DNA of 37,706 bases, from contig NZ_BBYK01000085.1 of assembly GCF_001570365.1 (NCBI RefSeq), positions 5,967 to 43,672 on the forward strand, read 5' to 3'. Positions within the stretch are counted from its first letter, which is position 1; the number at the start of each line of letters is the position of its first letter. The stretch comes from Microtetraspora fusca. Its GTDB lineage: Bacteria; Actinomycetota; Actinomycetes; Streptosporangiales; Streptosporangiaceae. Of the stretch, positions 1 to 37,029 are shown piece by piece. The notes under the pieces were generated by a model. The model was given only the letters and a program-made list of their open reading frames with translations, searched no databases and had not been told where the DNA came from. The position numbers and the translations under genes were made by a program.

Positions 1-459
1 GTACGTCGCGGTCAGCGGCCCGGTCACCGCCGTGGCGAGGGCGGCGGCGTCGCCCGCGACGGGCAGGATCCCGGTCACGGCGGAGGCGGCCGCGGCCGCC
101 GACAGGCCGCCCTGGGCGGCGAGGATCCACGACCCGACGCTCATCGGCGAGGAGGGCTTGAACATGCGGAGCATGTTGAGGAACCGGGCGGGCCGGCCCA
201 GCTCGGCGATCAGGAGGACGGTGCCCCCGGCCGCCCCGGCCGCGGCGGCGATCCGGGCGGTGCGGGTTAGGCGGGGCCGCCCGGTGGCCCGGGCCAGGAC
301 CGCCGTGAGCGAGGACGCCCCGGACAGCCCGCCCAGGTACAGGTAGGCCGGCATGTGCGGTACGTGCCAGACCGGCCGTTTGATCACCGGCCGCCCGTAG
401 TACGACCGGAACTCCGCGTCGTCCGTCCGCGGCTCCCGCTCGCGCGTGCTGCTGGTCAT
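1..459 (-). CDS. nrfD: NrfD/PsrC-type membrane anchor of formate dehydrogenase (3' end outside window)
   Basis: This is the N-terminal 153 residues of a polysulfide-reductase/NrfD-family integral membrane subunit, which anchors an oxidoreductase complex and passes electrons to or from quinone. A charged N-terminus is followed by a short tract containing HVPHMPAYLYLGG, then hydrophobic helices and the family-typical stretch LGRPARFLNMLRMFKP before MSVGSWIL. ATG is preceded by GGGAGAGG at good distance. It lies 52 bases after the Fe-S subunit on the same strand, so it is the third gene of the fdh operon. About half of a normal NrfD (300 or more residues) is missing because the gene runs off the left edge. 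Confidence 0.85.
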   Translation of the reverse strand, partial: MTSSTREREPRTDDAEFRSYYGRPVIKRPVWHVPHMPAYLYLGGLSGASSLTAVLARATGRPRLTRTARIAAAAGAAGGTVLLIAELGRPARFLNMLRMFKPSSPMSVGSWILAAQGGLSAAAAASAVTGILPVAGDAAALATAVTGPLTATY

Positions 460-511: not shown

Positions 512-1360
512 TCATCGCGGCCCGCCCCGTCCGAGGAGCCGGTCGGAGGATCCGAGGAAGGACAGGGCGACGGCGCCCGCCATCGCGAGCGCGGCCGCCC
601 CGGCCCACCGCCACATCGCGGGCAGGTCCCGCGTGGGCACCACCGGGTCGGGCGGCAGGCCGTACACCTCGGGCTCGTCGAGGAGCAGGAAGAACGCGCC
701 CATCCCGCCGACGCCGTCGTCCGGGCTCTCGCCGTACAGACGGGCCTCGGTGCGGCCGAGCGCGTGCAGCTCGGCCACGCGGGCGGCGGCGCGCTCACGC
801 AGCTCGTCGAGCGGGCCGAACTGGATGGAGTCGGTCGGGCACGCCTTGGCGCAGGCGGGTTCGAGCCCGCCGCGCAGCCGGTCGTAGCACATCGTGCACT
901 TCCACGCCCGGCCGTCGTCCTCCCTGCGGGCGATCACCCCGAACGGGCAGGCGGGCACGCAGTAGCCGCAGCCGTTGCAGATGTCGGCCTGCACGACCAC
1001 CGTGTCGAACTCGGTGCGGAACAGCGCGCCCGTCGGGCAGACGTCGAGGCAGCCGGCGTGCGTGCAGTGCTTGCAGACGTCCGACGACATCAGCCAGCGG
1101 CCGTCCGGCCCGATCTGGAACGGCTTCCCGCTCCCGTCGCCGTCGCCGGTCGTGCCGCCGGCCGTCCAGACGGGCTGCTGCTCGATGAAGGCGACGTGCC
1201 GCCAGGTGCTCGCCCCGAGCGCGCCGGTGTTGTCGTAGGAGGTCGCCTCGAACACGAACCCGTCGTCGGGGAGCAGGTTCCACTCCTTGCAGGCCACCTC
1301 GCACGCCTTGCAGCCGATGCAGATGCTCGTGTCGGTGAAGAAGCCCATCCGCTCAGCCAT
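512..1360 (-). CDS. fdhB: Formate dehydrogenase iron-sulfur (beta) subunit
   Basis: A 282-residue ferredoxin-like electron-transfer subunit that carries electrons from the molybdopterin subunit to the membrane anchor. Four cysteine clusters are visible: C14/C17/C20/C24, C96/C99/C104/C108, C128/C131/C134/C138 and C155/C158/C170/C174, which fits four [4Fe-4S] centres as in FdnH-type subunits. A single hydrophobic segment near residues 251-270 is a likely C-terminal membrane helix. Its ATG overlaps the end of the alpha gene (ATGGCTGA, 8 bases), implying translational coupling. It therefore depends on read-through of the upstream UGA codon for its own coupled translation. Confidence 0.93.
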   Translation of the reverse strand: MAERMGFFTDTSICIGCKACEVACKEWNLLPDDGFVFEATSYDNTGALGASTWRHVAFIEQQPVWTAGGTTGDGDGSGKPFQIGPDGRWLMSSDVCKHCTHAGCLDVCPTGALFRTEFDTVVVQADICNGCGYCVPACPFGVIARREDDGRAWKCTMCYDRLRGGLEPACAKACPTDSIQFGPLDELRERAAARVAELHALGRTEARLYGESPDDGVGGMGAFFLLLDEPEVYGLPPDPVVPTRDLPAMWRWAGAAALAMAGAVALSFLGSSDRLLGRGGPR

Positions 1361-4300
1361 GCCGGTACTCCTCGACCAGGCGGAGCAGCTCCGCGCCGCG
1401 CGGCCGGCGGCCGGGCAGTACGTCGCAGGTGGTCGCCTTGCTCTCCTGGATGTAGACGTTCGGGTCGACCGCGATCGGCAGCAGGTCGTTGACGATGTCG
1501 CCGGTGACCAGGCCGCCGCTCCCCCATCCCCAGTGGTACGGCAGGCCGATCTGGTGGACGATCCGGCCCTGGATCCGCAGCGGCCGCACGCGCTCGGTGA
1601 CCAGCACGCGGGCCTCGATCGCGGTCCGGCTGGTCACGATCGTGGCCCAGTCGCCGTTCTCCAGGCCCAGCTCGGCGGCGAGCGCCGGCGACATCTCGCA
1701 GAACAGCTCCGGCTGCAGTTCGGCCAGGTAGGCCAGCGGCCGGCTCATGCCGCCCGCCGTGTGGTGCTCGGTCAGCCGGTACGTGGTGAGCACGTACGGG
1801 AAGCGCGGCGACCGCTCGGGGTTGTACGGCGACTCGGGGCGCGGGTAGGTCCGCAGCGCCGGGTTGGACTGCGTGCCGTACAGGCTGTTGCGCACCGGCG
1901 ATTCCAGGGGCTCGTAGTGCGCGGGCAGCGGCCCGTCGGCCAGGCCCGCAGGGGCGAACAGCCAGCCCTTGCCGTCCGTCTGCATGATGAACGGGTCGGT
2001 GCCGGACAGCGCGTCCTCGGCGGCGGCGCCGTCGGGCGGCAGGTAGCTGGGATGCTTTCCCTTCTCGAAGTCGGGCACGTCCGGCCCGGCCCACTCGCCC
2101 CGCTCCTCGTCCCAGCGGAGGTACGCCTTGCGCTCGCTCCAGGGACGGCCCGCGGGGTCCGCGGAGGCGCGGTTGTAGAGGATGCGCCGGTTGGCCGGCC
2201 AGGCCCAGCCCCATTCGAGGGCCTCCAGGTTCTGCTCGCGTCCCGGCCGGCGCCGGGCCGCCTGGTTGACCTCGTCGGCGTAGACGCCGCAGTAGATCCA
2301 GCAGCCGCAGCGGGTGGAGCCGTCCGGTCGCAGCTCCGTGTACGCGCTGAGGGCCCGGCCGTCGGGGCCGACCCCGCCGATCTCGCGCAGCACGGCCGAG
2401 GCCGACGGGTCGCGGTGCTCGCCCTCCTCGGGGTAGTCCCAGGTGAGCTCGCGCAGCGGCCGGTCCCTGTCGTCGGACGACGCCCGCTCCTTGAGCAGCT
2501 TGCCGAGGTGGTAGTAGAACCACAGGTCGCTACGGCAGTCACCGGGCGGGTCGAGTGCCTTCTCCCGCCACTGGAGCAGCCGCTGCGTGTTGGTGAAGGT
2601 GCCCTCCTTCTCCACGTGGCTGGCCGCGGGCAGGAAGAACACCTCGGTGCCGATGTCCTCCGTGCGCATCTCCCCGGTCTCCAGCTCGGGGCCGTCCTTC
2701 CAGAAGGTCGCCGTCTCGACCTGGGTCAGGTCGCGTACGACGAGCCAGTCGAGGTTGGCCAGCCCGAACCGCTGCGCGCGCCCGCCGGAGGAACCGACGG
2801 CCGGGTTCTCCCCCACGACGAAGTAGCCCTTGACCGTCCCCTCGATCATGCCCATGACGGTCCTGTAGTGGCCGTGGTCGCCGGTGAGGAGCGGCAGGTT
2901 GTCGAAGCGGAAGCCGTTCTCCTCGGTGGCCGCGTCGCCCCACCAGGCCTTGAGCAGGCTCACCATGTAGGCGCGCTTCCTGCCCCAGAAGCCGGTGTCC
3001 CCGCCCGCCCGCGTCAGGTAGGCGTCCAGGTTCTCGTCCGCGTGCGAGTACGGCATGGGCAGGTAGCCCGGCAGGATGTTGAACAGCGTCGGGATGTCGG
3101 TCGAGCCCTGGATGCTCGCGTGGCCGCGCAGCGCCATGATGCCGCCGCCCGGCCGCCCGATGTTGCCGAGCAGGAGCTGCAGGATGGACGCCGTCCTGAT
3201 GTACTGCACGCCCACGGTGTGCTGGGTCCAGCCGACGGAGTAGACCCAGGCGGTGGTGCGCTCCCTGCCGGAGTTGGCGATGATCGCGTCGGCGAGCTCG
3301 GCGAAGTCCGCGCGGGACAGGCCGCACAGCTCCTCGACCATCTCCGGCGTGTAGCGGGCGAAGTGCCGCTTGAGTACCTGGTAGACGCAGCGCGGGTGGC
3401 GCAGCGTCGGGTCCGTCGTCGGGTGGGGGTGCGCCGCCGCGCCGCCCGCGCCGTACTGGTCGGGCCCGGCGGCCAGGGCGTGGGCCTGGCCGGCTTCGAG
3501 CTGCTCGGCGCGCAGCCCGGCCGCCGGCTCCTCGGCCACCCCCTCGTACCTCCAGGTGGACGGGTCGTACGCGCGGGTCTCCGGATCGAAGCCGGAGAAC
3601 AGGCCGTCGAGGTCCTCGGTGTCGCGGTACGCCTCGGACACGATCATCGGCGCGTTCGTGTAGGCCAGCACGTACTCGCGGAAGTCCAGCTCGTTCGACA
3701 GGACGTGGTTGATCAGCGCGCCGAGCAGCACGATGTCGCTGCCCGCCCGGATGTTCAGGTACCGGTCGGAGAGCGCGCTGGTCCGCGTGTAGCGGGGGTC
3801 CACGTGGAACACCTTCGCCCCCCGGGCCCTGGCCTCGACCACCCACTGGAAGCCCACGGGGTGGCACTCGGCCATGTTGGACCCCTGGATGACGATGCAG
3901 TCGGCGCGCATCAGGTCCTGCTGGAACGTGGTGGCGCCGCCGCGCCCGAAGCTGGCCCCCAGACCGGGGACGGTGGAGGAGTGTCAAATGCGGGCCTGGT
4001 TCTCCACCTGGATCGCGCCGAGGGCGGTGTAGAGCTTCTTCATCAGGTAGTTCTCTTCGTTGTCGAGCGTCGCCCCGCCCAGGCCGGCGATGCCCATGGT
4101 GCGGCGCACGACCTTGCCCTCGTGCTCCTGCTGCCAGGTGTCCCTCCGGGTCCGCATGACCCGGTCGGCGATCATCTCCATCGCGGTGCCGAGGTCGAGC
4201 GGCTCCCACTCCATGCCGTACGGCCGCCGGTAGAGCACCGTGGTCTGGCGTCCGGCGTGGGTGACGAGCTGCTTGCTGGCCGACCCCTTCGGGCACAACC

Positions 4301-4544
4301 GGCCCCGCGAGATGGGCGAGTCGGGGTCGCCCTCGATCTGGCTGACCTTGCCGTCCTTGACGTAGACGAGCTGGCCGCAGCCGACCGCGCAGTAGGGGCA
4401 GACGGAGCGGGCGACGCTGTCGGCCTCCTCGACCCGGGGCCGCAGCGCGTCGGTTCGTGCCGACCGCGCGGCCTGGCCTCTGCCGTCCTGTCCCCGGAGC
4501 TGCCGGATCACCGGCCACCGGGCGAACAATCCCCCACCTGCCAT
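1353..4544 (-). CDS. fdhA: Selenocysteine-containing formate dehydrogenase alpha subunit (UGA at 3984-3986 read as Sec)
   Basis: Molybdopterin-dependent formate dehydrogenase catalytic subunit oxidising formate to CO2, 1063 residues when UGA codon 187 is read as selenocysteine. The N-terminal [4Fe-4S] domain shows CPYCAVGC then a fourth Cys in GRLCPKG. The conserved segment reads NQARI-(UGA)-HSSTVPGLG, which puts Sec exactly at the catalytic Sec/Cys position of the family. Downstream, GSNMAECHPVGFQW and the C-terminal MGD-binding region (LPYHWGWGSGG) are intact. No frameshift is needed. I chose ATG at 4544 (MAGGGLFARWPVIRQL) because it matches the family N-terminus; longer starts to 4634 exist. 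First gene of the fdh operon, divergent from the LLM gene. Confidence 0.92.
3955..3986 (-). promoter_or_regulatory. Selenocysteine UGA codon with adjacent bacterial SECIS-like hairpin
   Basis: On the minus strand the UGA (3984-3986) is followed by 12 bases, then arm GTCCCC (3971-3966), loop GGTCT (3965-3961) and arm GGGGGC (3960-3955). This is a 6-bp stem with one G-U pair. From memory, the E. coli fdhF SECIS also carries GGUCU in its apical region, 18 bases after the UGA; here the distance is also 18. It should recruit SelB with Sec-tRNA to decode the UGA. The pairing is seen in the sequence; the function is inference from the family. Confidence 0.8.
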
Positions 4545-4642
4545 GATGCGTGTCTTGCCCGGCTCGGCCCGGTCTAACCGCCCGTCCGCGCGAGCCGCGG
4601 CGGGCAGCGAGTGTCGTCCGCGGGCGGGACACACCCCCGGCT

Positions 4643-32123: not shown

Positions 32124-32987
32124 CTAATGCACGGCGCCGGACACCTCGACCGGGAAGTCCACGACCACCTGGCCGGTGCCACTGCTGCCGAAGTACGGGC
32201 AGAGCTGCTCGCCTTTCCCCTGATAGGAGTCCCACCCCAGCAGGCCGAACAGCATGGCGGTGTCCGCCATCGCGCCCTCGCCCGTACACCGCCGGTTGTA
32301 GTCGGGAAGCATCTCCACGAACTCGGAGATCCGCCCCTCGCACCACATGTCCAGCACCTTCAGGTCCACCTGTCGGTTGATCTCGCTGCTCACGTCGTTC
32401 AGCAGCGACTCGGCGATCTCGTTGGGCGGGAAGGCGTGGGACAGCGAGCCGCTGGCGAGGAAGGCCACCTTGCGGTCGCTGCGCCGTACGGCGCGCAGCA
32501 GGGCCTCCCCGATCCGCCGGTTCTCCTCGATCGAGGAGTAGATGTTGCACCCGATCGGCAGCACCCGGATCGAGGAGTCGCCGTTCATGAAGTACATCGG
32601 GACGAGCGTGGCGTACTCCAGGCCCAGGTCCTTGTACGTGTGCACCATCGCCTTCTGGCCGCCGGCCGCGATCTCCTCGCGGATCAGCTCGGCCAGCTCG
32701 GGGTCGCCCGCGTAGTCGTAGGCCAGGTCGTGGATGAAGTGCGGCAGCTCGTGGCTGGCGTACGACGCCCGGTGCCGCTCCTTGCCGTTCAGGTGGAAGC
32801 CGATGCTGTTCATCCAGTGCGTGTCGGCGACCAGGAAGGTGTCCGCTCCGCGCTCGCGGGCGCGTTGCCCGATTTCGGTCAGCGCCACCTCGGCCGGGCG
32901 GCGGATGCCGTAGTGCTTGCCCGGCTGGATGGACAGCCAGATCGACGGCACGTGCGTGATCTTGGCCGCCAGGACGACCTCTCCCAT
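32124..32987 (-). CDS. Class III extradiol ring-cleavage dioxygenase (LigB superfamily, HpaD-like)
   Basis: A 287-residue non-heme Fe(II) dioxygenase opening a catechol ring by meta cleavage. Candidate iron ligands are H12 (ITHVPS) and H57 (ADTHWMN) with a C-terminal Glu. H184 in SGSLSHAF matches the catalytic acid/base position of the superfamily. The best guess for substrate is 3,4-dihydroxyphenylacetate (homoprotocatechuate), because the divergent operon holds FAH and HpaE-like genes; related catechols are possible. ATG at 32987 has a GGGGAGGG leader; the upstream ATG at 33071 has none. Confidence 0.88.
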   Translation of the reverse strand: MGEVVLAAKITHVPSIWLSIQPGKHYGIRRPAEVALTEIGQRARERGADTFLVADTHWMNSIGFHLNGKERHRASYASHELPHFIHDLAYDYAGDPELAELIREEIAAGGQKAMVHTYKDLGLEYATLVPMYFMNGDSSIRVLPIGCNIYSSIEENRRIGEALLRAVRRSDRKVAFLASGSLSHAFPPNEIAESLLNDVSSEINRQVDLKVLDMWCEGRISEFVEMLPDYNRRCTGEGAMADTAMLFGLLGWDSYQGKGEQLCPYFGSSGTGQVVVDFPVEVSGAVH

Positions 32988-33073
32988 TACGCCCTCCCCT
33001 GTCTCACCCCGGGCGCCGCTGCGGCCCGGTCCCGGGCGACCTGAGTGTGGTCGCCCAATTCGGACAGACAAGA

Positions 33074-33103
33074 ATCATGTAGGAACTCAAATATCTTTGT
33101 CTA
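33074..33103 (-). promoter_or_regulatory. Candidate promoter of the extradiol dioxygenase gene
   Basis: On the minus strand TAGACA (33103-33098, five of six to TTGACA) and CATGAT (33079-33074) are 18 bases apart. They lie in an AT-rich island upstream of the dioxygenase. Confidence 0.4.
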
Positions 33104-33126
33104 TAGCCGTCCTTAATCCGATCGAG

Positions 33127-33150
33127 TATCATCAACGATGTCGTATACGA
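33127..33150 (+). promoter_or_regulatory. -10 box and palindromic GntR-type operator of the meta-cleavage operon
   Basis: TATCAT (33127-33132) is a good -10 box. The perfect 10-base palindrome TCGTATACGA (33141-33150) follows at the expected transcription start and lies just before the Shine-Dalgarno GGAGAGGG. It fits the GT...AC core shared by GntR/FadR operators. A repressor here would block initiation or elongation. Confidence 0.6.
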
Positions 33151-33162
33151 TTAGGAGAGGGT

Positions 33163-34620
33163 ATGGAACACCCGCTCGGCCTCTCGCCGGGGAAGATCGT
33201 CGCGGTCCATCTCAACTACCGCAGCCGCGCGGCCGAGCGCGGGCGCGTCCCGGCGGTGCCGTCGTACTTCCTCAAACCGTCGTCGTCCCTGTCCTGGTCG
33301 GGCCGTCCCGTCGTCCGGCCCGCCGGGTGCGAGCTGCTCGCCTTCGAGGGAGAGATCGCGATCGTCATCGGCGAGCGCGCGCACCGCGTCCCGCCCGAGA
33401 CGGCGCTCGACCACGTCGCGGGCTACACGGCGGCCAACGACTTCGGCGTCTACGACTTCAAGCACGCCGACCTCGGCTCCAACCTGCGGGCCAAGGGCCA
33501 GGACGGTTTCACGCCCGTCGGCCCGTCGATCCTGCGGGACGCCGACCCGGCGAAGCTGTGGCTGCGCACGTACGTCAACGGGGAGCTCGCCCAGGAGGCG
33601 TGCACCGACGAGCTGCTGTTCGGCTTCGACCTGCTCATCGCCGACCTGTCCCGCGTCATGACGCTGGAGCCCGGCGACCTCGTCCTCGCCGGGACCCCGG
33701 CCGGGTCCACCGTCGTCCAGCCGGGCGACGTGGTCGAGGTCGAGCTGGAGGGGGCCGGGCGGCTGCGCAACGAGGTCGTGGCCGACACGCGGGAGCTCGC
33801 CGCGTGGGGCGTCCAGCCCAAGGTCACCGACGAGGCCCGGGCGGCGGCCTACGGCTCGGCCCGTCCCGCGGAGCGCGAGACGGTCACTCTGACCGGGAAG
33901 GCGGCGTCGCCGCAGGGGGCGTCCCCCATCGCCCCGGACACCGACGCGGCCCTCCGGTCGGTCTCCACCGCCACTCTGTCGTCCCAGCTCCGCAAGCGCG
34001 GCATCGACCACCACTTCATCGAGGGCGTACGGCCGGCCCGGCCGGACCTGCGCATGGTGGGGGTGGCGCGGACCCTGCGCTACCTCCCGCTGCGCGAGGA
34101 CGTCTTCGCCGAGATCGGCGGCGGGATGAACGCCCAGAAGCGCACGGTCGAGGAGATCCGGCCGGGCGAGGTCCTCGTCATCGAGGCGCGCGGCGAGCAC
34201 GGCGCCGGGACCCTGGGCGACATCCTCGCGCTGCGCGCCCTGCGCAGGGGCGCGGCCGGAGTGGTCACCGACGGCGGCCTGCGCGACAGCCCCTCGTTCG
34301 CCTCCCTCGACCTGCCGTCGTACTACGGCGTGCCGCACGCGGCGGTCCTCGGGCGGCGGCACGTCCCGATGGACTCGCAGGTGCCCGTCTCCTGCGGCGG
34401 CGTGCTGGTCATGCCCGGCGACGTGCTGGTCGGCGACGCGGAGGGCGTGGTCGTCATCCCGCCGGCCCTGGTCGACGAGATCGCCAGGGACGCCGCCCGG
34501 CAGGAGGACGAGGAGCGCTTCATCTACGAGCGGGTCGCCGAAGGCGAGTCGGTGGACGGCCTCTACCCCATGAACGCCCGGTGGCGGGAGACCTACGAGC
34601 AGACCAGGCGCGAGAAGTGA
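33163..34620 (+). CDS. Fumarylacetoacetate hydrolase-RraA/HMG-aldolase fusion protein
   Basis: A 485-residue fusion. Residues about 1-225 are an FAH-family hydrolase, isomerase or decarboxylase (FEGEIAIVIG with E62 and E64, D93 in AANDFG, GFDLLIADLSR, LAGTPAGS). After a short linker, residues about 255-470 are an RraA-like domain as in 4-hydroxy-4-methyl-2-oxoglutarate aldolases (GAGTLGDILA at 347-356, GGLRDS with R374-D375). In a homoprotocatechuate route the first part would act like HpaG and the second could cleave the final 2-oxo acid. ATG has a GGAGAGGG leader. First gene of the operon. Confidence 0.92.
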   Translation: MEHPLGLSPGKIVAVHLNYRSRAAERGRVPAVPSYFLKPSSSLSWSGRPVVRPAGCELLAFEGEIAIVIGERAHRVPPETALDHVAGYTAANDFGVYDFKHADLGSNLRAKGQDGFTPVGPSILRDADPAKLWLRTYVNGELAQEACTDELLFGFDLLIADLSRVMTLEPGDLVLAGTPAGSTVVQPGDVVEVELEGAGRLRNEVVADTRELAAWGVQPKVTDEARAAAYGSARPAERETVTLTGKAASPQGASPIAPDTDAALRSVSTATLSSQLRKRGIDHHFIEGVRPARPDLRMVGVARTLRYLPLREDVFAEIGGGMNAQKRTVEEIRPGEVLVIEARGEHGAGTLGDILALRALRRGAAGVVTDGGLRDSPSFASLDLPSYYGVPHAAVLGRRHVPMDSQVPVSCGGVLVMPGDVLVGDAEGVVVIPPALVDEIARDAARQEDEERFIYERVAEGESVDGLYPMNARWRETYEQTRREK

Positions 34621-34651
34621 CTCGCGACCGGCAGAGCAAGGAGTTGAACAC

Positions 34652-35563
34652 GTGAAGTTCCGTTCGGATCCCGCGACCATACGCGGCTCCATCGCCCCCG
34701 TGGTGACGCCGTTCACCGCCGAGGGCGCGCTCGACCTCCACTCGCTGCGGGCGCTCGTGCGCTGGCAGCTCGCCCAGGGCTCGCACGGCATCTCCACCGG
34801 CGGCTCCACCGGCGAGCCGGGCGCGCAGAGCGTCGAGGAGCGCGTCGCCGCGATGACCGTCGTCGCCGAGGAGACCGCCGACCGGGTGCCGTTCCTGCCC
34901 GGCACCGGCTCGGCCAAGCTGGACGAGACGCTCCGGCTGACCGCCGAGGCCGAGCGGCTCGGCGCCGACGCCGCGCTCGTCATCACGCCCTACTACGCCC
35001 GGCCGACGCAGGAGGCGCTGTTCCGCTGGTACTCGACGGTCGCCGCCGAGTTCCCGTCGCTGCCGATCGTCATCTACAACGTGCCCTCGCGGACCGCGGT
35101 GGACATCGCGCCCGAGACCGTCGCCCGGCTTCGGCGGGCCCACGACAACATCGTGGGCATCAAGGAGACCACCAAGGACTTCGAACACTTCTCCCAGGTG
35201 CTGCACCGCTGCGGCCGCGACTTCCTGATGTGGTCGGGCATCGAGCTGCTGTGCCTGCCGCTGCTCGCCATCGGCGGCGTCGGCTTCGTCAGCGCGGTGG
35301 CCAACCTCGCGCCGGCGGCCGTCGCCCGCATGTACACCGCGTACACCCAGGGCGACCACCGGACCGCGCTCGACCTGCACTACGCCCTGCACCCGCTGGT
35401 CGAGCTGCTCTTCGTGGAGACGAACCCGGCCCCGGCCAAGTGGGTGCTGGAGCAGCGCGGGCTGCTCGCCTCCGGGCACGTCCGCCCGCCGCTGGTCAGC
35501 CCCACCGAGGCGGGGATCGCGCGCATCAACGAACTGCTGGCCCAGAGCGAGGGAGTCGCCTGA
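34652..35563 (+). CDS. Dihydrodipicolinate synthase/N-acetylneuraminate lyase (DapA) family aldolase
   Basis: A 303-residue class I aldolase. The Schiff-base Lys is K171 (GIKETTKD), the catalytic Tyr Y142 (IYNVPSRT), and the pyruvate-binding loop reads GGSTGEPGAQ. Its operon position suggests aldol cleavage of a 4-hydroxy-2-oxo acid to pyruvate plus an aldehyde, rather than lysine synthesis. GTG at 34652 has an AAGGAG leader, 31 bases after the fusion gene. The next gene starts on the last base of its stop codon (TGATG), implying coupling. Confidence 0.9.
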   Translation: MKFRSDPATIRGSIAPVVTPFTAEGALDLHSLRALVRWQLAQGSHGISTGGSTGEPGAQSVEERVAAMTVVAEETADRVPFLPGTGSAKLDETLRLTAEAERLGADAALVITPYYARPTQEALFRWYSTVAAEFPSLPIVIYNVPSRTAVDIAPETVARLRRAHDNIVGIKETTKDFEHFSQVLHRCGRDFLMWSGIELLCLPLLAIGGVGFVSAVANLAPAAVARMYTAYTQGDHRTALDLHYALHPLVELLFVETNPAPAKWVLEQRGLLASGHVRPPLVSPTEAGIARINELLAQSEGVA

Positions 35564-37029
35564 TGAAGCTGGAGCACTACATCGGCGGGGCGCACGTCCC
35601 CAGCGTCTCGGGCGCGACCTTCGCCACGCTCGAACCCGCGACCAACACCGAGTACGCCACGGTCGCGGCGGGCGACGCGCAGGACGTCGAGGCGGCCGTC
35701 GCCGCCGCTCGCACGGCGTTCACCGAGGGGCCGTGGCCGCGGATGCCGGCCGCCGAGCGGGCCGCGGTGCTGCGCCGGATCGGGGCCGCGATCGAGTCGC
35801 GCGACGACCGGATCGCGGCGATCGAGTGCCGCGACACCGGCCTGCCGATCACCCAGGCCCGTGGCCAGGCCCACCGGGCGGCGCAGAACTTCCGGTTCTT
35901 CGCCGACGTGATCACCACACTTGGCGAGGATGTCTACCGGGTGGCCTCCGCGCAGCTCAACTATGTCGTGCGCAAGCCCGTCGGCGTGGCCGGACTGATC
36001 ACGCCGTGGAACACGCCGTTCATGCTGGAGACGTGGAAGCTGGCGCCGGCGCTCGCCGCCGGATGCCCGGTCGTCCTGAAGCCCGCGGAGTGGTCTCCTT
36101 TGTCGGCCGGCCTGCTGCCGGAGATCATGGAAGAGGCGGGGCTGCCCACCGGCGTGTTCAACATCGTGCACGGCATCGGCGAGGAGGCCGGGGCGGCGCT
36201 GGTCGCGCACCCCGACGTGCCGGTGATCTCCTTCACCGGTGAGACCGGCACCGGACAGATCATCATGCGTTCGGCCGCGGCCCACCTGAAGACCCTGTCC
36301 ATGGAGCTCGGCGGCAAGTCCCCCTTGGTGGTCTTCGACGACGCCGACCTGGAGCGGGCGCTGGACGCCGCCGTCTTCGGCGTCTTCTCGCTGAACGGCG
36401 AGCGCTGCACGGCCAGCTCGCGGGTCCTGGTCCAGGACACGATCTACGACACGTTCGTGGCGCGGCTTGCCGAGCGGGCCGCGCGGGTCAGGGTCGGCTC
36501 CCCCGACGACCCGGCGACCGAGCTGGGCGCGCTCATCCACCCCGAGCACTACGCGCGGGTCATGGACTACGTGCGCGTCGGCATGGAGGAGGGGGCCCGC
36601 CTGGTCGCGGGCGGCGAGCCCCCCACCGGCCTGCCCGGGGGCAACTTCCTGTCGGCCACCGTCTTCGCGGACGTCACGCCGGAGATGCGGATCTTCCAGG
36701 AGGAGATCTTCGGCCCGGTCGTGTGCGTCACGCCGTTCTCGACCGAGGAGGAGGCGGTCCGGCTGGCCAACGCCACCCGGTACGGCCTCGCGGCCTACCT
36801 CTGGACGAACGACCTGCGCCGCACCCACCGGATGACGCAGGTGATCGAGGCGGGCATGCTGTGGGTCAACTCGCAGAACGTCCGTGACCTGCGCACGCCG
36901 TTCGGCGGCGTCAAGGCCAGCGGCCTGGGACGCGAGGGCGGCCACCACAGCATCGACGTCTACACCGAGTCGCACATCGTCCACGTGGCGACGGAGGACC
37001 TGCCCATCCCCCGCTTCGGCGTGGCCTGA
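35563..37029 (+). CDS. hpaE: Aldehyde dehydrogenase, 5-carboxymethyl-2-hydroxymuconate semialdehyde dehydrogenase-like
   Basis: A 488-residue NAD-dependent aldehyde dehydrogenase with N150 (PWNTPF), E248 (MELGGKSP), nucleophile C282 (GERCTASS) and the C-terminal PFGGVKASGLGREGG. The length and the HHSIDVYTE tail fit HpaE/AldA-type semialdehyde dehydrogenases. It would oxidise the ring-fission semialdehyde made by the extradiol enzyme. The specific assignment rests on context; a different aromatic semialdehyde is possible. The start is coupled to the aldolase stop. A terminator follows. Confidence 0.88.
   Translation: MKLEHYIGGAHVPSVSGATFATLEPATNTEYATVAAGDAQDVEAAVAAARTAFTEGPWPRMPAAERAAVLRRIGAAIESRDDRIAAIECRDTGLPITQARGQAHRAAQNFRFFADVITTLGEDVYRVASAQLNYVVRKPVGVAGLITPWNTPFMLETWKLAPALAAGCPVVLKPAEWSPLSAGLLPEIMEEAGLPTGVFNIVHGIGEEAGAALVAHPDVPVISFTGETGTGQIIMRSAAAHLKTLSMELGGKSPLVVFDDADLERALDAAVFGVFSLNGERCTASSRVLVQDTIYDTFVARLAERAARVRVGSPDDPATELGALIHPEHYARVMDYVRVGMEEGARLVAGGEPPTGLPGGNFLSATVFADVTPEMRIFQEEIFGPVVCVTPFSTEEEAVRLANATRYGLAAYLWTNDLRRTHRMTQVIEAGMLWVNSQNVRDLRTPFGGVKASGLGREGGHHSIDVYTESHIVHVATEDLPIPRFGVA

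Follow-up and report, generated by a model that had tools for sequence, protein, structure and literature searches.

A UGA codon in a formate dehydrogenase gene of Microtetraspora fusca is very probably read as selenocysteine

The product of the fdhA gene described here is very probably the catalytic subunit of a formate dehydrogenase (FDH) that depends on molybdenum or tungsten, and in which selenocysteine (Sec) would serve as a ligand of the metal and an in-frame UGA would be read through by means of a SECIS hairpin. We base this assignment on the presence of the UGA at the ligand codon, followed by a SECIS at the distance seen in E. coli, and of a tRNA-Sec with anticodon UCA, selA, selD and a gapped selB in the same genome. 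The window, that is, the whole stretch of 37,706 nucleotides analysed, comprises bases 5967-43672 of contig C84 from a draft genome of 9.02 Mb (108 contigs, 99% complete). The features discussed are located in Table 1.

Table 1. Features of the fdhA locus, in window coordinates except where contig C84 is named.
Feature	Position	Strand	Basis
fdhA, formate dehydrogenase alpha subunit	1353..4544	(-)	UGA read through (predicted)
In-frame UGA, predicted Sec codon	3984..3986	(-)	codon alignment with family genes
Putative bacterial SECIS hairpin, six pairs	3955..3971, loop GGUCU 3965-3961	(-)	comparison and genome pattern search
fdhB, iron-sulphur subunit	512..1360	(-)	TIGR01582 FDH-beta 171 bits (below cut-off 335); Fer4_11 78 bits (cut-off 26)
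nrfD, membrane subunit, 5' part	1..459	(-)	Pfam NrfD 41.9 bits (cut-off 25.8), frame including the 5' part
tRNA-Sec, anticodon UCA	C84:3342-3433		73.4 bits (cut-off 47)
selD	C84:3527-4573		390 bits (cut-off 125)

Translation of the window shows that the minus-strand frame 4634-1353 is open throughout except for the UGA at 3986-3984. Translation probably begins with the ATG at 4544, giving a product of 1063 residues with the UGA as residue 187, and a GTG at 4634 offers an alternative start, from which the read-through frame comprises 1094 codons. The peptide around the UGA reads NQARI-U-HSSTVPGLGASFGRGG, the residue at this codon being presumably the Mo/W ligand. When the UGA is read through, the product matches the NCBIfam model NF041513 (formate_DH_Act) with 1908 bits (cut-off 1400), spanning 37-1092 of the 1094 codons, and TIGR01553 (formate dehydrogenase-N alpha) with 913 bits (cut-off 814), and it carries the Pfam domains Molybdop_Fe4S4, Molybdopterin and Molydop_binding above their cut-offs. 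Its best PDB relatives are FDH alpha subunits labelled as selenocysteine-containing (top score 697 bits), and the alignment with PDB 9qm0 covers the UGA codon. The first-pass annotation had located a UGA exactly at the Sec/Cys position of the alpha subunit, and this is what the single frame shows, on a strand that the annotation did not give. It had also described the enzyme as hidden in two open frames, which standard annotation would report as a pseudogene or a truncated protein; this holds for plain ORF calling, which breaks fdhA into pieces of 216 and 852 aa, but not for annotation with NF041513, a curated model that covers the full-length enzyme.

The same model was searched (E <= 1e-100) in 394 class-level genomes, an even sample of a larger group, and the family was present in 109 of them. 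Among 112 family genes read at this site in these 109 genomes, the Sec codon position holds UGA in 88, UAG in one and a Cys codon in 23; the base-pair table and the trees comprise 111 genes, as one Cys gene (G074) is counted among the 112 but stands outside both, and three copies of the window's gene (L008, L013, L014) and a different molybdopterin enzyme from the window's genome (L009) were dropped. The tRNA-Sec was sought (E <= 1e-9) in 49 hand-picked genomes, of which 38 belong to the 109 that have the family, ten are listed as lacking it and one is unlisted. It was found in 17 of the 18 genomes with a stop-codon FDH, the sole miss being a genome (G370) that is 63% complete, in two (G206, G315) of the 20 that have the Cys form alone, and in one of the 11 with neither form (G151). 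The genome with UAG at the Sec codon (G390; L107, L158) retains an intact SECIS, and its tRNA matching the tRNA-Sec model bears the anticodon CUA and is labelled tRNA-Pyl by ARAGORN. Sec read from UAG in formate dehydrogenases of Geodermatophilaceae has been reported before (PMC5330540, in excerpt). Sec and Cys copies occur together in two genomes, G323 (L034, L086) and G131 (L059, L108). The Cys-type gene L045 (G283) may be broken or wrongly assembled, because it holds an internal TGA elsewhere in its frame.

Downstream of the fdhA UGA, 12 bases are followed by GUCCCC-GGUCU-GGGGGC, the stem thus beginning 12 bases and the loop 18 bases past the UGA. A 6-bp hairpin with loop GGUCU had been noticed from the bare sequence and is present as described; the 18 bases given for its start, the spacing of E. 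coli fdhF, are instead the distance to the loop. In isolation the hairpin folds with all six pairs (-9.7 kcal/mol). The 49-nt stretch after the UGA is no more stable than its shuffled versions (z = 0.36; 121 of 200 equal or better), and its lowest-energy fold is another structure and not the SECIS hairpin. Since energy folding of these 49 bases failed to single out the hairpin, the case for a SECIS was built on comparison: its grounds are a loop and core that never vary and the difference from the Cys genes, which themselves form one clade. A search of the 9.02-Mb genome for the exact signature gave a single hit, against none for a reversed-pattern control.

The motif CCC-RGU-YUG-GG is present in all 89 stop-codon fdhA genes, with three inner C-G stem pairs and the loop RGUYU in every case (GGUCU in 72 genes, AGUCU in 11 and AGUUU in 6), so that the SECIS anticipated in the bases after the UGA is borne out by conservation, though its energy alone is unremarkable. 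All six stem pairs form in 83 of the 89 genes, the other six having a single mismatch each (U-U in four, at pair two counted from the base, and G-G in two, at pair three), whereas they form in none of the 22 Cys genes, and in a 23rd Cys gene, inspected by eye, two G residues face each other in the core. The comparison of Sec and Cys forms is a natural control for the SECIS bases that matter. The Gly codon of the loop is GGU in 72 of 72 genes, while GGU elsewhere makes up 10% of the Gly codons in these genes and 2% in the window's own fdhA; the 17 stop-codon genes with Ser at this place all use AGU; and all 89 use CCC for the Pro of the hairpin, even though CCG, at 65%, is the more frequent Pro codon. 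Counting from the base of the stem, the third pair is formed by bases 15 and 27 past the UGA. Both are third codon positions; they are seen as C-G, U-A, U-G, G-U and G-C and are paired in 87 of the 89 stop-codon genes. Counted over distinct stretches, 51 of 53 are paired against 33 expected, and none of 20000 column shuffles was as good, in a test that ignores kinship. The pair changes at least 18 times on the tree; a kinship-corrected test was not significant because it had too few independent comparisons, only seven in all, about two of them with pairing and none against it.

The reading of the bare sequence had further predicted that the organism makes Sec, and the genome contains a tRNA-Sec(UCA), selD and selA, together with a selB that is interrupted by a gap. 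The suggestion that these genes lie just beyond the left edge of the window, next to nrfD, proved right for tRNA-Sec and selD, which sit 1.4-2.6 kb left of the window, past nrfD, and wrong for selA and selB, which are neighbours on contig C66. The 47-bit threshold for tRNA-Sec lacks full specificity, as a second site in the genome also passes it with 48.4 bits and is called tRNA-Ser by ARAGORN. Inspected by eye, the tRNA-Sec of the locus (L008:3342-3433) lacks standard pairs at the final two acceptor positions of the Rfam model, and seven acceptor pairs with a six-pair T stem would still total 13. On C66, selA scores 431 bits (cut-off 268) and the ATG of selB overlaps its stop. An assembly gap of 17 N interrupts selB and leaves a few codons unread, the frames on either side being open; the two pieces score 112 and 90 bits against the TIGR00475 cut-off of 242, and no site in the genome attains this SelB cut-off. 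A frame shift in selB was considered and rejected as apparent only, being explained by the 17 N letters. The C-terminal winged-helix domain, which is the SECIS-binding part in known SelB proteins, is found (PF09107, 60.7 bits). Two repeats were seen in these genes: a 48-bp tandem repeat within selB (2.5 copies, 95% matches; L028:3320-3437), which would give a repeated stretch of SelB, and a 47-bp tandem array (3.2 copies; L008:4553-4698, on C84) that starts at the end of selD. The case illustrates that inspection of sequence alone can anticipate a recoded codon as well as its decoding machinery, with which the genome then agreed.

As in the established bacterial route, SelA and SelD would convert Ser-tRNA-Sec to Sec-tRNA-Sec, and SelB would bring the latter to the ribosome while binding the hairpin loop, so that the UGA would be decoded as Sec and not as a stop. 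We propose that the resulting FDH oxidises formate to CO2, and the electrons would then pass from FdhA through FdhB and the NrfD-type membrane subunit to the quinone pool.

Three other explanations of the interrupted frame deserve consideration. Being one base away from UGC, the UGA might be a sequencing error in what is truly a Cys codon, as found at this site in 23 of the 112 family genes, and the assembly, in 108 contigs, has draft status; yet UGA also stands in G323 and G131, the two closest on the tree, the genome has a tRNA-Sec, and the window's fdhA keeps intact a six-pair hairpin that none of the 23 Cys genes has, which makes an error exceedingly improbable, the least credible of the three. 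That fdhA is a pseudogene inactivated by a nonsense mutation would fit the two pieces delivered by plain ORF calling, but the frame of 1063 residues has no further stop and matches the family model nearly end to end, the SECIS is intact, fdhB is open and starts within an overlap with fdhA, and 88 homologues carry a stop at the same codon; we regard inactivation as highly improbable.

The remaining explanation leaves fdhA intact and places the defect in selB, whose breakage would impair Sec decoding so that the truncated product alone is made. The 17 N within the gene, the scores of its pieces below the family cut-off and the tandem repeat that it contains speak for such a defect. However, the gap is unread sequence in which no stop is seen and whose flanking frames are both open, the winged-helix domain at the C terminus of SelB is present, and selA, selD, tRNA-Sec and the SECIS have all been retained; we regard impaired decoding of this kind as very unlikely, if slightly less so than the other two. 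Decoding of the UGA as Sec in a functional fdhA remains by far the preferred reading.

A protein tree of the 111 genes (FastTree, midpoint root, two runs), computed with the columns of the site omitted, separates Sec from Cys enzymes by one change, with support of 98 and 99 in the two runs, and places the window's fdhA in a group with seven further Sec genes from the same bacterial family. The midpoint root places the Cys clade inside the Sec enzymes, and a change from Sec to Cys with loss of the hairpin would for this reason be the simpler reading of these sequences, the root itself being unproven. This agrees with a 2006 survey in which, according to an excerpt, Sec-to-Cys changes were found mostly in formate dehydrogenase and SelD (PMC1794560).

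The gene order gives some indication of the type of enzyme. The ATG of fdhB overlaps the final UGA of fdhA, both lying within ATGGCTGA, and nrfD runs on leftward outside the window, beyond an N gap; FdhB and NrfD fall short of the NCBIfam equivalog cut-offs. Among 80 loci whose flanks were surveyed (L059-L138), 64 have full flanks of about 4 kb (61 stop-codon, 3 Cys), and homologues of fdhB and nrfD lie near fdhA in all 61 stop-codon and all 3 Cys loci of this set. In the same set, selD is near fdhA in 34 of 61 stop-codon loci, selA in 30 and selB in 19, as against 0 of 3 Cys loci for each of them. Of the loci given to ARAGORN, 30 of 57 with a stop codon and 0 of 3 Cys loci have a tRNA-Sec (UCA). 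No twin-arginine signal was seen by eye in the N-termini of the alpha subunits of the window's gene and nine relatives, which have a WPVxRQ-like stretch and no RRxFxK, and the catalytic subunit would on this account face the cytoplasm. As fdhB and nrfD follow fdhA, the enzyme is probably attached to the membrane and linked to quinone, both its orientation and its acceptor being inferred. Elsewhere in the window, genes resembling those for homoprotocatechuate breakdown lie at 32124-37029. The (-) strand carries an HpaD-type dioxygenase; the (+) strand then carries a member of the fumarylacetoacetate hydrolase family whose second half is RraA-like, as well as an HpaI/DapA-like aldolase and HpaE.

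Within the bacterial family to which the window belongs, G206 (L161), G315 (L162) and G151 (L163) are three genomes that have a tRNA-Sec and a nearby selB homologue and no Sec FDH at E <= 1e-100; the first two have only a Cys FDH, G151 has no FDH of the NF041513 family at this threshold, and in two of the three SelA lies beside SelB. Another selenoprotein may exist in these genomes. Read-through frames of TGA with high GC3 near their tRNA-Sec were indistinguishable from noise. A broader idea, which we find possible though rather doubtful, is that this bacterial family has a distinct type of SECIS (a bulge-free six-pair stem, a CCC/GG clamp and an RGUYU loop) that a diverged SelB recognises, plus at least one unrecognised selenoprotein, the latter suggested by the three relatives that keep tRNA-Sec and SelB without a Sec FDH.

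The membrane subunit of E. coli FDH-N is of the cytochrome b type, whereas the one found here is of the NrfD type and fdhA, by eye, has no visible twin-arginine signal. The alpha subunits of E. coli FDH-N and related PDB entries (1kqf, 6sdv, 9qm0) align with the fdhA product through the Sec site at 682-697 bits. With E. coli fdhF (NC_000913.3) the gene shares a UGA followed by CAC and a loop GGUCU that starts 18 bases after the UGA, but its six-pair stem is free of bulges, while the E. coli stem as folded by RNAfold contains an unpaired U. NF041513 matches fdhA nearly end to end, no defining difference having been found, and it matches the Cys version too. The closest precedent is that of Corynebacterium aurimucosum, for which the excerpted 2010 report (PMC2830990) describes an fdnG with an internal UGA and fdxH, clustered with selA, selB, selD and selC; compared with the arrangement in that excerpt, selA-selB here lie on another contig, and just selD and tRNA-Sec are near fdhA-fdhB-nrfD. 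Given the dedicated NF041513 model and the UGA-containing actinobacterial fdnG with selABD and selC already described in that excerpt, the selenoprotein FDH belongs to a known type that is common among related actinobacteria, and is not new. In the excerpted table of bacterial selenoproteins (PMC5029168), formate dehydrogenase alpha holds the top place (822 organisms), and the present gene adds one more selenoenzyme of this known kind.
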